Assembly: GCA_009783865.1 (NCBI GenBank)
Contig: WRCR01000002.1
Coordinates: forward strand, 1 to 37,226
DNA length: 37,226 nucleotides
From: Planctomycetaceae bacterium
Lineage (GTDB): Bacteria; Planctomycetota; Planctomycetia; Pirellulales; Thermoguttaceae
Reading direction: 5' to 3'
Shown here: in pieces, positions 19,898 to 25,962 of the stretch
Numbering within the stretch: position 1 is the stretch's first letter
Layout: each line of letters begins with the position of its first letter
Translations under genes and position numbers: made by a program
Notes under the pieces: generated by a model
Seen by the model: only the letters and a program-made list of their open reading frames with translations
Told to the model about the DNA's origin: nothing
Database searches by the model: none

Positions 19898-21127
19898 TCA
19901 ACCGATAATCTTTTTTGCCGCTGCCGTCAACGGCGACGATACACTGTCAACTTCCTGCAACAACGAAGCAAGGCGTTCTTTGCTCTGCTGAATGCTCTCC
20001 GGTGTTGACAGCCAATCAATCAAACATGCTGCCGCTTCTTTTGACTTATCCGTGCAAGTTAGAAATTCGGGAAACAACATCTTGCTGCGGGTTTCAACAT
20101 CCGCCTCCGCCGGAATGAATCGGACTGCATCGCCGTAAAAGACCGGCGTTTCACCGGTTGTTTCGTTTCTGTGTCTGTCAAGTTCCAGCAGGTTCACCAG
20201 TGTTATCGAAGGCGTTCTCCGAAAAAACCGTTGAATGAAAAACGGAAGCCGACCGACTCTGTAATAAATGACTGCCGGCTTGTTGCAGGCAAGTGATTCC
20301 AAAGAAACCGAGCCGGAAACCGCAAGACAGCAAGATGCCAGCCGAAGTAATTCCGGCGTTTTACCAACAAAGACCGGTATCATAAGTCCGCGCTGCTCTA
20401 ACATCTTGCGTATGAAAGCCGCTTGCGTTTCTTTGAAAGCGGCAAACACCGGTCGGACTTTCGGAACAGCAGCACGGACAATTTCAACGGCGAAAAGTAT
20501 ATCGGCAAGATTGCCGTGTACTTCCTGGTCACGCGAGCCGGGCAAAAGTGTCAGAATAGGTTCATCGCCGCATTGCTTGCGGAATGATTCCATAAAAGCG
20601 GTGTCGGGCTGATACTGACGCGTCTCTTCAAAGAAGGGATGTCCGATGTAGTCCGTTTCAATACCGTGTTTTTCAAACCAGCGTTGTTCAAACGGCAGCG
20701 GAGAGAAGACCTTGTCGACGTACCGCTTCATTTTTTTGACTCGCCATGAAGCCCAACTCCAGATTTGCGGCGGCATAAAGTAATAGACGGGAATCCCGTA
20801 TTTCTTGGCGCATTTCGCAACATGCCAGTTGAAGCCCGGATAATCAACGAGTATAACAGCATCAATTTTTTCGGAGGCGAAGACCGCTTCGGCTTGTTTC
20901 AGAAAGTTGCGGAAGAGGAAATAATTCGCAAGGGGTTTCTTCAGCCACATCACGGCGTGCTGTGTTAAGTCGGCAAGGAGTTTGCAGTTGCTGCTTTGCA
21001 TTTTGGGACCGCCGAAACCGATACATTCCGTTTCCGGTTCGAGGGAGCGGAGGCGGTCAATCAGATGAGCGGCGTGCAGGTCGCCGCTGGGTTCACCGGC
21101 AGAGAAAAACAAACGCAGGTTGTTCAT
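19898..21127 (-). CDS. lpxB: lipid-A-disaccharide synthase
   Basis: LRLFFSAGEPSGDLHAAHLI, GFGGPKMQ, YYFMPPQIWSWASWRVKKMKRYVDKVFSPLPFEQRWFEKHGIETDYIGHPFFE, LTLLPGSRDQEV. Confidence 0.94.
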   Translation of the reverse strand: MNNLRLFFSAGEPSGDLHAAHLIDRLRSLEPETECIGFGGPKMQSSNCKLLADLTQHAVMWLKKPLANYFLFRNFLKQAEAVFASEKIDAVILVDYPGFNWHVAKCAKKYGIPVYYFMPPQIWSWASWRVKKMKRYVDKVFSPLPFEQRWFEKHGIETDYIGHPFFEETRQYQPDTAFMESFRKQCGDEPILTLLPGSRDQEVHGNLADILFAVEIVRAAVPKVRPVFAAFKETQAAFIRKMLEQRGLMIPVFVGKTPELLRLASCCLAVSGSVSLESLACNKPAVIYYRVGRLPFFIQRFFRRTPSITLVNLLELDRHRNETTGETPVFYGDAVRFIPAEADVETRSKMLFPEFLTCTDKSKEAAACLIDWLSTPESIQQSKERLASLLQEVDSVSSPLTAAAKKIIG

Positions 21128-22092
21128 GAACTTGTTTTCCTAACTAATACCCTCGCAAAACATTTTTTGCCGTTAATACAAGGGTGATATACCTTATCAT
21201 CAATAAGAGCATACCCTTTTTCCAATAAACCGTTTAATATAGAGCGGGCGGATACAGCAAACGGCTTCTTATAATCACTTGGAATATAACAATTATCGAC
21301 AATTAACGTTTTTGAATCATCATACCTTTTATACTTTTCCGGTATATCTTTTAACGGTATTATTTTAAGATGGTTATACTTTTGTCTGTTTTTTATAGGG
21401 ATATTTGTGTACCAGGTTCCTGCTGCTCTTGTTAATTCCCTTTTAGATGTTAGATACCAATCGACTCTGTTATACCCAGCCCATGCTTTACCCTCTTTGA
21501 AATATGGAATAAAAGCAAGAGTTATCGGATTTGTTATGTTGGAAATAATAAGAAACTTCTTGCCGCTTTCAATAATCATTCTCCAATAGTCGATTGCTCT
21601 GGAAAACGGCGGATTCGTACATACGATGTCGGTATCCTCACGAAGTATTTTCAAGGACAATGGGTCATCAAAACTGCCGGTATAATTTTTCGGATATTCC
21701 TTTGTTCCTATTTCGCTGAATCCGTTTTTCGTAAAAATGTAACCCTTCGGTCCTTGATTGAATAAGTCAACCTTTCCGCCGTAATGAGTACATATCAGTT
21801 TTTTTATTCCTAACTCTTTGAATTTTTTCAAGAAATATAATGCGAAAGCAGATGTTGTTCTTTCGTTATTACCGACTGCGTCATCGCAATTACAAAAGAC
21901 GACTTTGTTTTTCCAAACCGATTTGGGATACATGTCTAACTCTTTTTCGACATCTTCGTACCGTGTAAAAAATTCGTCATTATCGGCTCTTTGGGCTCTG
22001 TGAAGTAATGTTTGCCTTGTCACACCCCTTTCTTCAAGCGTCGGGGTTGTTTTTTTAATTATCTTTTCCTGCTCCGATTTGTTCTTTGCCAT
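21124..22092 (-). CDS. EcoRI-family adenine-specific DNA methyltransferase, lacking the N-terminal GIY-YIG domain of its neighbours
   Basis: DNDEFFTRYEDVEKEL, VVFCNCDDAVG, IVCTNPPFSRAIDYW, WYTNIP, LLEKGY...NGKKCFARVLVRK (M.EcoRI-like layout); ends in ATGA overlap with lpxB. Confidence 0.85.
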   Translation of the reverse strand: MAKNKSEQEKIIKKTTPTLEERGVTRQTLLHRAQRADNDEFFTRYEDVEKELDMYPKSVWKNKVVFCNCDDAVGNNERTTSAFALYFLKKFKELGIKKLICTHYGGKVDLFNQGPKGYIFTKNGFSEIGTKEYPKNYTGSFDDPLSLKILREDTDIVCTNPPFSRAIDYWRMIIESGKKFLIISNITNPITLAFIPYFKEGKAWAGYNRVDWYLTSKRELTRAAGTWYTNIPIKNRQKYNHLKIIPLKDIPEKYKRYDDSKTLIVDNCYIPSDYKKPFAVSARSILNGLLEKGYALIDDKVYHPCINGKKCFARVLVRKTSS

Positions 22093-22121
22093 GAGTACTC
22101 TCCTAATCTGCGGATTTCTCC

Positions 22122-23414
22122 TTATACTTTCTTAACTAATACCCTTCCGAAACACTTTTTACCATCCACGTATGGAAAGTACTGATTATCTTTAACAATT
22201 TTATAACCTTTTTCTAATAAACCATTTAGGAGCGGACGAACAGATACAGCAAACGGTTTCTTATAATCGCTTGGAATATAACCGTGATTTACGATTAACA
22301 TTTTTGAATCATCATACTTTTTGTATTTTGCCGGTATATCTTTCAACGGCATTATTTTTAAGTGTCTGGATTTCGGTCTTTTTTTTATGGGAATGTTTGT
22401 GTACCAATGTCCGGCGGCGGCTAATAATTCTCTTTTAGGATTTAAGAAATTATCAACACTGTTGTACCCGGGCCATGCTTTACCGTTCATAAAATACGGA
22501 ATAAAAGCCGGAGTTACAACATTCGATATATTAGAAATAATGATAAAACGCTTGCCGCTTGTAATGAGCATTTGCCAATAGTCCCGCGCTCTTGAAAACG
22601 GAGGATTCGTGCAGACGATGTCGGCATCATCACGAAGAATTTTCAAGGACAGCGGGTCATCAAAACTGCCTGTGTATTTTTGGGGAAATTCCTTGATTTC
22701 CCTAAATCCGGTTTTTGTAAAGATATAACCTCTTGGTCCTTGATTAAATAAGTCAACTTTCCCTGCGTAATGTGTACAGATTAGTTTTTTTAATCCTAGT
22801 TCCTCAAACTTTCTCAAAAAATATAGAGCGAAAGGCGACGTTGTTATTGCATCAGTACCCACTGCGTCATCGCAGTTGCAGAAAACGGCTTTGTTTTTCC
22901 AAATGGACTTTGGATAAATGTTTAATTCTTTTTCGACATCTTCGTATCGTGTAAAAAACTCGTCATTGTCAGCGTTCTGTGCTTTTTGCATTACGTCTTT
23001 CTTCGACATACCTCTTTCTTCAAGCGTCGGAGTTGTTTTTTTAATTATCTTTACGATTTGCTTTTTGTCTTCTTTCTTGATGAAAATTTCTTCAACAAAC
23101 GACGCGTGTGACTTTATAAAACTAACATACCTCTCAAACAACGTCTGATTATAAAAATAAATTTCTTTGCTTTTTTCTTCACGCAGGAAAACGTATTCTT
23201 TTTCAATATCCCTTTCAACTCGTGTCATATTTTTTACTTTACATGTGAAGAGATAAGCATAGACATTGTCCTTGGACTTGCCCGTCATAGAGTTATATTC
23301 TTTGAGCCGCCGGTCAAGGTCATTCGTCTTGCCTATTTTGCACTTGGAAGGTTCCAGCGATGACTGCACGATGTAGATATACTGGTTTTCCTGCTCCGAT
23401 TTGTTCTTTGCCAT
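22122..23414 (-). CDS. GIY-YIG (T5orf172/MUG113-like) nuclease domain fused to EcoRI-family adenine methyltransferase
   Basis: N-term YIYIVQSSLEPSKCKIGKTNDLDRRLKEYN...RVERDIEKEY...KEIYF; C-term CNCDDAVG, CTNPPFSRARDYW, KCFGRVLVKK; SD AGGAGAG upstream. Confidence 0.85.
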   Translation of the reverse strand: MAKNKSEQENQYIYIVQSSLEPSKCKIGKTNDLDRRLKEYNSMTGKSKDNVYAYLFTCKVKNMTRVERDIEKEYVFLREEKSKEIYFYNQTLFERYVSFIKSHASFVEEIFIKKEDKKQIVKIIKKTTPTLEERGMSKKDVMQKAQNADNDEFFTRYEDVEKELNIYPKSIWKNKAVFCNCDDAVGTDAITTSPFALYFLRKFEELGLKKLICTHYAGKVDLFNQGPRGYIFTKTGFREIKEFPQKYTGSFDDPLSLKILRDDADIVCTNPPFSRARDYWQMLITSGKRFIIISNISNVVTPAFIPYFMNGKAWPGYNSVDNFLNPKRELLAAAGHWYTNIPIKKRPKSRHLKIMPLKDIPAKYKKYDDSKMLIVNHGYIPSDYKKPFAVSVRPLLNGLLEKGYKIVKDNQYFPYVDGKKCFGRVLVKKV

Positions 23415-23443
23415 GAGTACTCTCCTAATCTGCGGATTTCTCC

Positions 23444-24742
23444 TTATACTTTCTTAACTAATACCCTTCCAAAACAGCGTTCACCATTTACATACGGAAC
23501 ATATTCTTTATGTTCGACGAGTTTATATCCCTTTTCCAATAAACCATTTAATATGGAACGGACAGATACAGCAAAGGACTTCTTATAACCGCTTGGAATA
23601 TAACCATTATCGACAATCAACATTTTAGAATCATCGTATCTTTTGTATTTTGCCGGTATATCTTTCAACGGTATTATTTTTAGGTGTCTGGATTTCGGTC
23701 TTTTTTTTATGGGAATGTTTGTGTACCAATGCCCGGCTGCGGACACAAGTTCTCTTTTAGGATTTAAAAAATAATTAACACTGTTGTACCCGGGCAATGC
23801 TTTTCCTTCTTCAAAGTATGACATATAGGGCTGGTTCTTAACATTTGTTATATTAGAAATGATTATGAACTTTTTCCTGCTTGCGATAATTATTCTCCAA
23901 TAGTCCCTCGCTCTTGAAAACGGCGGATTCGTACAAACAATGTCGGCATCCTCGTTCAGTATTTTCAACGACAATGGATGGTCAAAACTGCCGTTATATT
24001 TTCTGGGATATTCCTTTGTTCCTATTTCGCTATACCCGGTCTTGGTAAAAATATAGCCCCGCGGTCCTTGATTGAATAAGTCAACGTTTCCCGCAAAATG
24101 CGTACAGATTAGTTTTTTTAATCCCAACTCTTTGAAATTTTCCAAAAAGTACAAGGCAAAGGGAGATGTTGTTATTTCGTCATCGCCCACTGCGTCATCG
24201 CAGTTGCAAAACACGACTTTGTTTCTCCAAATTCTTTTAGGATACATCGACAGTTCTTTTTCGACATCTTCGTACCTTGTGAAAAACTCGTCGTTCTTAA
24301 CCTTCTGTGCTTTTTGAAGTATTTCTTTTGTTGTCAGTCCTCGTTCTTTAAGCGTCGGAGTTGTCTTTCTGATTATCCTGACTATCTGTTTTTTATCATC
24401 TTGTTTGATAAAAATCTCTTTAACAAATAATGTGTGCGATTTTATAAACTTGACGTATACATTAAACCAATGAGGATTACAAAAATATATTTCCCTGCTT
24501 TTCTCTTCCCGCAGATTAAAGAATTGCTTCGCCATATCTGCTTCAATCCGCGCCATATTTTTGACTTGACACGTGAAGAGATAAGCATAGACGTTGTCTT
24601 TGGACTTGCCCGTCATATTGTTATACTCTTTGAGCCGCCGGTCAAGGTCATTCGTTTTGCCTATTTTGCACTTGGACGGCTCTAGCGATGACTGCACGAT
24701 GTAGATATACTGGTTTTCCTGCTCCGATTTGTTCTTTGCCAT
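23444..24742 (-). CDS. GIY-YIG nuclease domain fused to EcoRI-family adenine methyltransferase, second fusion paralogue
   Basis: Same architecture; MAKNKSEQENQYIYIVQSSLEPSKCKIGKTNDLDRRLKEYNNMTGK..., CTNPPFSRARDYW; start at 24742 aligns with the paralogue start. Confidence 0.85.
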   Translation of the reverse strand: MAKNKSEQENQYIYIVQSSLEPSKCKIGKTNDLDRRLKEYNNMTGKSKDNVYAYLFTCQVKNMARIEADMAKQFFNLREEKSREIYFCNPHWFNVYVKFIKSHTLFVKEIFIKQDDKKQIVRIIRKTTPTLKERGLTTKEILQKAQKVKNDEFFTRYEDVEKELSMYPKRIWRNKVVFCNCDDAVGDDEITTSPFALYFLENFKELGLKKLICTHFAGNVDLFNQGPRGYIFTKTGYSEIGTKEYPRKYNGSFDHPLSLKILNEDADIVCTNPPFSRARDYWRIIIASRKKFIIISNITNVKNQPYMSYFEEGKALPGYNSVNYFLNPKRELVSAAGHWYTNIPIKKRPKSRHLKIIPLKDIPAKYKRYDDSKMLIVDNGYIPSGYKKSFAVSVRSILNGLLEKGYKLVEHKEYVPYVNGERCFGRVLVKKV

Positions 24743-24761: not shown

Positions 24762-24781
24762 CGGCGAGTTATCACTCGCCG
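24762..24781. repeat. palindromic mini-element, TATC-loop subfamily
   Basis: CGGCGAGT-TATC-ACTCGCCG. Confidence 0.75.
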
Positions 24782-24810: not shown

Positions 24811-25962
24811 TTATTTTTCGTAACCGAAACGCTCGAAATATCTGCTCCAGCACCCGGCGATTTTTCGTTTCACCTCTTCGTCCATCTCGAACTTGTTCTT
24901 CTTGTATTCCTTTTGCGAAGCGGCAAAGGTCTCCATCACCGGCTTCACTTGAGCAAAATCGCCGAGTTGCAGCGTACTGTAAATCCTTTCCAGCGTGTCA
25001 ACCGGCGCAGAAGTCAATTCCTTGAAAGACACTTCGCAGAACTGTTCCGGTCTCAACAATTTAATATCTTCGTCAAACGCATCATACATCGTGTTGAGCG
25101 AATCGAAAACGTAGTCCTCCATTCCGATTCCTTTCGGGATTTGCGCGCCTTCGTCTTTCGACAGCCGCATCCAAAGATTGTAAGTCGAAGGAAAAATCGA
25201 ATACGGATTGCGGTGAATGTGAATGAACTGTGCATCAGGATATTTTTCCAATATCGCCGCTATCCGACCGGTATGAGTCGGCGATTTCAAAACGATACGC
25301 TTGTCCGGCATGAGAACCGTCAATGACCGCAAAAATTCGTCAAGACGATTCAGCCAGTCCGTCCGCTTTTCGGATGAAAGATTTTTCAACGTGAGATAAT
25401 CGAAGTCAATCCGCTCAGGATTATTCGGAAAGAACATATTGCGGTAAGGCGACGGAAGTCCCATCGACATCAGCGCGAACTCATCTTCCTGCGGACGGTC
25501 AAAGCCCGCTGCCATGTTGTCAATCGGTCGTTTCTTCGGCATTACAATAGCCGCTATGGGACGCAGATAAAACCGGGAAAAGATGAAGTGTTCCGGTGCG
25601 AAACAAGTATAGGTGTCGGCAAAGCCGAAACGCTCATCGTTGATGAGATATTCATGCAGCAAAGTCGTTCCGCTGCGCCAATGTCCGATAACAAAGAGCG
25701 GCGGTGCTGCGAGTTTCGTCTTCTTGATTTTTCTTCCGTAGAAGAGCCGCTGTAAAATCGCAGACGGTGAATTAGCGATTACTCCCAGTCCGAGTACAAC
25801 TCCGACCATTCCCCAGCAAAGCGGCGAGACGCGGTAATTGCCGCTTTTCAATAGTTTTAAGGCGGCGCGCACTGTCATTCCGTCCCAAAAACGGGGATAC
25901 CAAAATCGGTCTTTGTAGCCGCCGACTTCTGCTGTTTTTACTGCTGGTTTTTTTACCGACAT
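24811..25962 (-). CDS. sulfotransferase family protein
   Basis: PPLFVIGHWRSGTTLLHEYL (5'-PSB loop), RIVLKSPTHTGRIAAILEKYPDAQFIHIHRNPYSIFPSTYNLW (3'-PB motif). Confidence 0.9.
   Translation of the reverse strand: MSVKKPAVKTAEVGGYKDRFWYPRFWDGMTVRAALKLLKSGNYRVSPLCWGMVGVVLGLGVIANSPSAILQRLFYGRKIKKTKLAAPPLFVIGHWRSGTTLLHEYLINDERFGFADTYTCFAPEHFIFSRFYLRPIAAIVMPKKRPIDNMAAGFDRPQEDEFALMSMGLPSPYRNMFFPNNPERIDFDYLTLKNLSSEKRTDWLNRLDEFLRSLTVLMPDKRIVLKSPTHTGRIAAILEKYPDAQFIHIHRNPYSIFPSTYNLWMRLSKDEGAQIPKGIGMEDYVFDSLNTMYDAFDEDIKLLRPEQFCEVSFKELTSAPVDTLERIYSTLQLGDFAQVKPVMETFAASQKEYKKNKFEMDEEVKRKIAGCWSRYFERFGYEK

Follow-up and report, generated by a model that had tools for sequence, protein, structure and literature searches.

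A tandem array of putative GIY-YIG nuclease/EcoRI-type adenine methyltransferase fusions in a planctomycete belongs to a gene family found in two bacterial phyla

Background

What might a GIY-YIG nuclease do when it is joined in one chain to an EcoRI-type adenine methyltransferase (MTase) and no separate restriction enzyme is encoded beside it? The question is raised by three adjacent genes, here called M1, M2 and M3, in a planctomycete draft genome; they lie in a stretch of 37,226 nucleotides that was analysed as a whole and is referred to below as the window.

Most Type IIC restriction-modification (R-M) enzymes carry a PD-(D/E)XK nuclease N-terminal to a gamma-class MTase and are sometimes accompanied by one or two additional MTases, and the main review of these enzymes lists GIY-YIG nucleases solely as stand-alone Type IIP enzymes (PMC4081073). 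When the GIY-YIG enzyme Eco29kI was fused by engineering to its cognate MTase, the product functioned as a Type IIC enzyme (PMC3039593), and the combination of a monomeric MTase with a dimeric restriction endonuclease in one chain has been argued to be regulated by assembly (PMC12707154). R-M systems as such are known to move (PMC3031569).

Results

Layout of the array and its surroundings

All three genes are on the minus strand and are transcribed in the order M1, M2, M3. M1 (23444..24742; 432 aa from its ATG) and M2 (22122..23414; 430 aa) each join a T5orf172-type GIY-YIG domain to an EcoRI-type adenine MTase, whereas M3 (21124..22092; 322 aa) is an MTase-only derivative with its MTase intact. 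These assignments rest on open reading frames and Pfam matches throughout, together with the nearest relatives for M1, a structural model for M2 and the phylogenetic tree for M3, and they bear out the initial annotation, which had described three adjacent paralogues of which the first two are fusions. The GIY-YIG domain occupies residues 1-115 both in M1 (24398..24742, minus strand; Pfam) and in M2 (23070..23414, minus strand; conserved residues and model); within M2 its core spans approximately residues 10-105 and is followed by a linker (106-138) and the MTase (139-430). The M1/M2 and M2/M3 spacers (23415..23443 and 22093..22121, minus strand), each with a ribosome-binding site, are indeed identical 29-mers, as had been annotated.

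The array is flanked upstream by a sulfotransferase-family gene (24811-25962) and downstream by lpxB (19898-21127), the ATG of which overlaps the M3 stop codon (ATGA). According to Pfam, neither neighbour is a stand-alone restriction-enzyme or EcoRI-like endonuclease gene, and the earlier statement that the array has no separate restriction enzyme holds. Two copies of ATTCATCATTACGA and the 20-nt inverted repeat CGGCGAGTGATAACTCGCCG occur in the gap between the sulfotransferase-family gene and M1; the inverted repeat (24762..24781, strand unassigned) lies closely 5' of M1 and is a possible terminator or repeat. The position beside lpxB is not a conserved insertion: elsewhere in the genus, flanks of up to 1.5 kb around lpxB contain neither the array nor the sulfotransferase gene.

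The host genome (G000) is a fragmented draft of 532 contigs, with a gene content that points to a planctomycete and at least 10 EcoRI_methylase genes. It also has a fourth fusion copy, cut by a contig end (G000:C112). Elsewhere in this genome, on G000:C4 (L044 6810-9967), an EcoRI-type MTase adjoins a C5 DNA methylase and a HaeII-type restriction endonuclease. At the window edge there is a short MutS-like reading frame of 455 aa (68-1435, stop at 68); MutS proteins are usually about 850 aa long.

Domain assignment, active-site residues and predicted structure

Both halves of the fusions exceed the Pfam cut-offs, as the initial annotation had anticipated. EcoRI_methylase (PF13651; curated cut-off 26.4 bits) matches M1, M2 and M3 with E-values of 2e-40, 1.9e-43 and 3.1e-40 and scores of 139-150 bits, in matches that leave the last ~60 profile positions uncovered. 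T5orf172 (PF10544; cut-off 20) matches M1 and M2 with E-values of 2e-10 and 7e-11 (scores 41.5 and 43), and the MUG113 profile likewise passes its cut-off in both; M3 has no Pfam match to either. Across the family, 22/22 GIY domains match the T5orf172/MUG113 profiles at E<=0.01, and the PADLOC candidate defence family PDC-S57 matches the GIY-YIG part in 22/22 as well. Pfam searches of the fusions revealed neither NUMOD nor any other homing-type module for DNA binding, nor a modification-reading domain, and no other nuclease family, including PD-(D/E)XK, was found by Pfam in M1, M2 or their homologues; no separate recognition or specificity domain was identified in the fusions.

In the family alignment (M2 numbering) Y12, Y14 and K26 are present in 27/27 sequences, R36 in 26/27 and E84 in 24/26, while Asn-Pro-Pro-Phe (NPPF), C-terminal to the nuclease domain, is found in all 30 of 30. 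The Tyr, Arg and Glu residues are presumably catalytic, a role that we assign from their place in the motif and from what is established for the GIY-YIG superfamily. The exceptions are E84D in the fourth host copy (G000:C112), E84K in G631:C12 and R36G in G158, and some nuclease halves among these copies may be decayed or dead.

AlphaFold2 models are of moderate confidence (pLDDT 70 and 76) and show the expected beta-beta-alpha-beta-alpha order in the GIY domain. When this domain alone was submitted to Foldseek, the top ten hits were all Slx1 GIY-YIG chains, but at weak E-values of 0.16-1.2; the C-terminus of the models retrieved SAM methyltransferases, also with weak E-values, and a sequence search of solved structures gave nothing useful. 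As regards the proposed catalytic geometry, the residues are thus kept in most homologues, and we regard the Slx1 ranking of the modelled fold as supportive of a GIY-YIG fold, not as proof.

The fusion is a gene family in two phyla

Searching genomes for the two-domain architecture revealed a real family, with 21 full-length fusion homologues in Planctomycetota and Spirochaetota. Besides the host, their carriers are G170, G503 and G158 from the same genus, numerous genomes from a single spirochaete family, and another spirochaete group with 27% GC. Copy numbers are minimum values, since many additional copies run off the end of a contig, as repeated genes are expected to do; start codons of homologues were chosen by us. 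One such copy, in a Spirochaetaceae metagenome-assembled genome (L059), is cut by the contig end and has neighbours that read as fliF- and fliG-like. Phage and plasmid records contained no place covering 80% of the fusion query and yielded plain EcoRI-type MTases only. A GIY-YIG gene beside a methyltransferase in Leuconostoc phage LLC-1 was discarded as a candidate, the enzyme matching general SAM methyltransferase families and no DNA MTase family. Of separate interest is G181:C56 (L012 1471-3411), where a single 646-aa frame joins an EcoRI-type MTase to a Dam-like (MethyltransfD12) MTase.

The MTase tree places the fusion family in a single clade, distinct from the canonical EcoRI-type MTases (support 100/100) and separated from them by a central branch of ~1.9 changes per site. 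Planctomycete and spirochaete fusions are interleaved within it; planctomycete monophyly is rejected (p-AU 0.003), and the gene has therefore crossed phyla. With dS high in most pairs and the ratios accordingly rough, median dN/dS is 0.137 for the GIY part and 0.127 for the MTase part, ~0.13 in both halves; in the one pair of species that share a locus (G777/G882) the values are 0.07 and 0.14. These rates indicate equal purifying selection on the two halves. Since homology spans whole domains and both are under purifying selection, the sequence comparisons also indicate that the domain matches are not due to chance.

Array history and recurrent nuclease loss

M1, M2 and M3 form a single clade (support 98/98 in one tree and 100/95 in another), which supports the origin of the array by local duplication. 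The initial annotation had drawn the same conclusion from the identical spacers; the tandem origin stands, and the identical spacers are no evidence of recent growth. The identical junction block extends to 85 nt (the 29-nt spacer plus 27 nt before it and 29 nt after it), whereas the gene bodies are only ~75-80% identical in DNA (differing by ~20-25%), with MTase-part dS of 1.07 for M1-M2 and 1.30 for M2-M3. Because the bodies have diverged this far (M1-M2 dS ~1.1), the junctions cannot date the duplication, and growth by recent duplication is ruled out; the duplication is old, and its junctions were probably homogenised later by recombination.

The initial nine codons (MAKNKSEQE) are retained in M3, after which its sequence picks up at the position matching M2 residue 122; this in-frame deletion of ~112 codons (M2 residues 10-121) removes the nuclease. 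By this comparison M3 is a nuclease-deleted derivative of the fusion, and such an event recurs in the family. About five independent nuclease losses can be placed on the tree (M3, G489:C266, the second copies of G631:C12 and G631:C75, and G753:C38), and at G631:C12 a fusion is directly followed by an MTase-only copy, the same arrangement as M2-M3. In G489:C183 the nuclease part is partially deleted. MTase motifs were kept after each loss, bar C-G-D for C-D-D in G489:C266, and no complete gene consisting of the GIY-YIG part alone was seen in the family. Two further loci show damage of other kinds: a degenerate fusion copy whose frame is broken and contains stops (G754:C5; L203 5062-6400), and a fusion gene interrupted by ~90 bp resembling a repeat elsewhere in that locus (G588:C40; L123 5121-6558).

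Genomic context and mobility

In the neighbourhoods read, partly by eye and in part against Pfam, the genes beside the fusions were housekeeping or unrelated ones, and no GmrSD_N gene and no nuclease family of any kind was recognised beside a fusion. For seven of the canonical EcoRI-type MTases from these groups an adjacent gene is of the GmrSD_N kind, with an HNH domain visible in five; the planctomycete pairs are at L041 7760-8860, L050 2366-3499, L051 13034-14206, L052 5318-6379, L017 188-1285, L013 1-763 and L014 2562-3227, and this recurrent two-gene pair is itself R-M-like. Consensus-like sigma-70 promoters (at most 2 mismatches, within 100 bases upstream) precede 9/25 fusion copies against 0.8 in shuffled sequence, an enrichment that fits self-contained expression.

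A clear insertion is found in the spirochaete genus of G777, where a FecR-like gene and the next gene are adjacent in 23/25 species. In G777 and G882 the fusion alone sits between them, with ~55 and 30 bases of upstream DNA and no transposase or repeat seen at the site, and the comparison shows a clean single-gene insertion. About 2 kb downstream of the G777 fusion lie two DNA-methyltransferase-like genes and a third gene (L197 10441-14053), perhaps another R-M system. Apart from this pair of species all insertion loci are different, and no motif common to the upstream and downstream flanks that were read was seen. Two fusion genes are near phage structural, packaging and integration genes (L199 5255-6625; L200 6666-7961), with terminase and integrase genes in G800 and major head and tape-measure genes in G898; because of these neighbours, phages are likely to be one vector of the gene. 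The mobile-cassette character that had been suggested for the array is supported by the cross-phylum transfer, the clean insertion and the phage-gene neighbours.

Attempts to find a recognition site gave no candidate that held. CAATTG is strongly depleted in the host genome (1 observed, 39.9 expected) and likewise low in G158, but it was rejected because it is equally low in G487, where no fusion was found, and not low in several carriers. GAATTC avoidance followed no pattern among the genomes, and no palindrome avoidance was tied to fusion carriage.

Discussion

We consider that M1 and M2 are probably natural single-chain, Type IIC-like R-M enzymes in which GIY-YIG takes the place of PD-(D/E)XK, encoded by a gene that spreads alone. 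A single chain for modification and cleavage, as initially annotated, is thereby the best-supported explanation of the locus, with cleavage, methylation, shared specificity, dimerisation and protection by M3 being what we infer from the domains. The C-terminal gamma-class (NPPF) domain would recognise and N6-methylate a DNA sequence, and the N-terminal T5orf172-type domain would cut DNA with unmethylated sites, probably once two chains have come together on it. M3, its nuclease excised, would act as a stand-alone methyltransferase adding protection. The gene would move between bacteria on its own, as a self-contained unit carried at least in part by phages, and would persist as a defence or selfish gene.

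The pattern of nuclease loss could also be read differently: the protein may be a solitary epigenetic or protective adenine MTase whose GIY-YIG part merely binds or targets DNA, or serves recombination or repair, without restricting foreign DNA. In its favour are a proposed role of T5orf172 proteins in phage recombination (PMC7824862), the repeated loss of the nuclease half from genes that retain the MTase, and the substitutions at catalytic positions in some copies. Yet most copies keep all of the catalytic residues, constraint on the GIY half equals that on the MTase, and a toxic nuclease paired with a protective MTase would likewise yield one-sided loss; we hold this account to be unlikely. 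Mobility bears on a homing-like selfish gene, in which GIY-YIG would cut gene-free chromosomes at the insertion site, repair would copy the gene in and methylation would shield the carrier. Such a gene would be solitary, present in several copies per genome and scattered over phyla, as observed, and could insert cleanly as in one spirochaete genus, but loci that all differ bar one species pair, flanks in which no common motif was seen and the missing NUMOD-like module make it improbable.

We find it very improbable that the fusion is a modification-dependent, Type IV-like enzyme, its GIY-YIG domain cutting DNA with a particular methylation and its EcoRI-type domain writing another mark. GIY-YIG domains can serve such roles, since engineered fusions of the DpnI winged helix with GIY-YIG restrict m6A-modified DNA (described in PMC12707154), but the present fusions have no recognisable modification-reading domain, and a Type IV cutter has no need of a methyltransferase of its own.

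If the reading as a single-chain R-M enzyme is true, the family would supply a combined R-M enzyme of natural origin with GIY-YIG as its nuclease. A more ambitious view, which we regard as doubtful, is that it constitutes a transposase-less one-gene mobile element: a one-chain R-M enzyme that would protect its host and force its own maintenance, insert cleanly across phyla, shed its nuclease to leave free MTases, and drift to new specificities in tandem copies. Since intact fusions, pseudogenes, partial deletions and MTase-only genes exist side by side in the family, nuclease loss can be watched and one can ask whether it gives rise to orphan methyltransferases; how a gene with no transposase inserts cleanly can be approached directly through the empty sites in 23 related species. 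We found no published description of a natural fusion of GIY-YIG with an EcoRI-type MTase in the open literature, REBASE and subscription papers being outside the scope of the search, and the novelty of the combination is provisional.

Among known systems, Type IIC/IIG enzymes such as MmeI, Eco57I and BpuSI likewise carry a nuclease N-terminal to a gamma-class NPPY/F/W MTase in one chain, and some are accompanied by one or two stand-alone MTases (PMC4081073), as M3 accompanies M1 and M2. Those described have a PD-(D/E)XK nuclease, whereas the fusions have GIY-YIG and an EcoRI-type MTase with no identified separate specificity module. EcoRI itself has an MTase homologous to that of the fusions (PF13651), but its endonuclease is a separate, unrelated protein with no counterpart at the array. 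The EcoRI-type MTase plus GmrSD_N/HNH pairs involve a related MTase family in the same bacterial groups, but the nuclease is a separate gene of another fold and the MTases fall in a separate clade. In DnmA-YeeB-YeeC of B. subtilis (PMC9973331) a T5orf172 GIY-YIG protein is also encoded with an adenine MTase, in three separate genes that include a helicase. The Slx1-like GIY-YIG plus COG4123 proteins of Lactobacillales (PMC1564403) are, like M1 and M2, natural fusions of GIY-YIG with an NPPY-type MTase, but in reverse domain order and from different families. RM.Eco29kI (PMC3039593) has GIY-YIG N-terminal to a DNA MTase in one chain as the fusions do; it is man-made, with another GIY-YIG enzyme and a 5-methylcytosine MTase, and the natural fusions, with their adenine MTase, would be its counterpart in nature.
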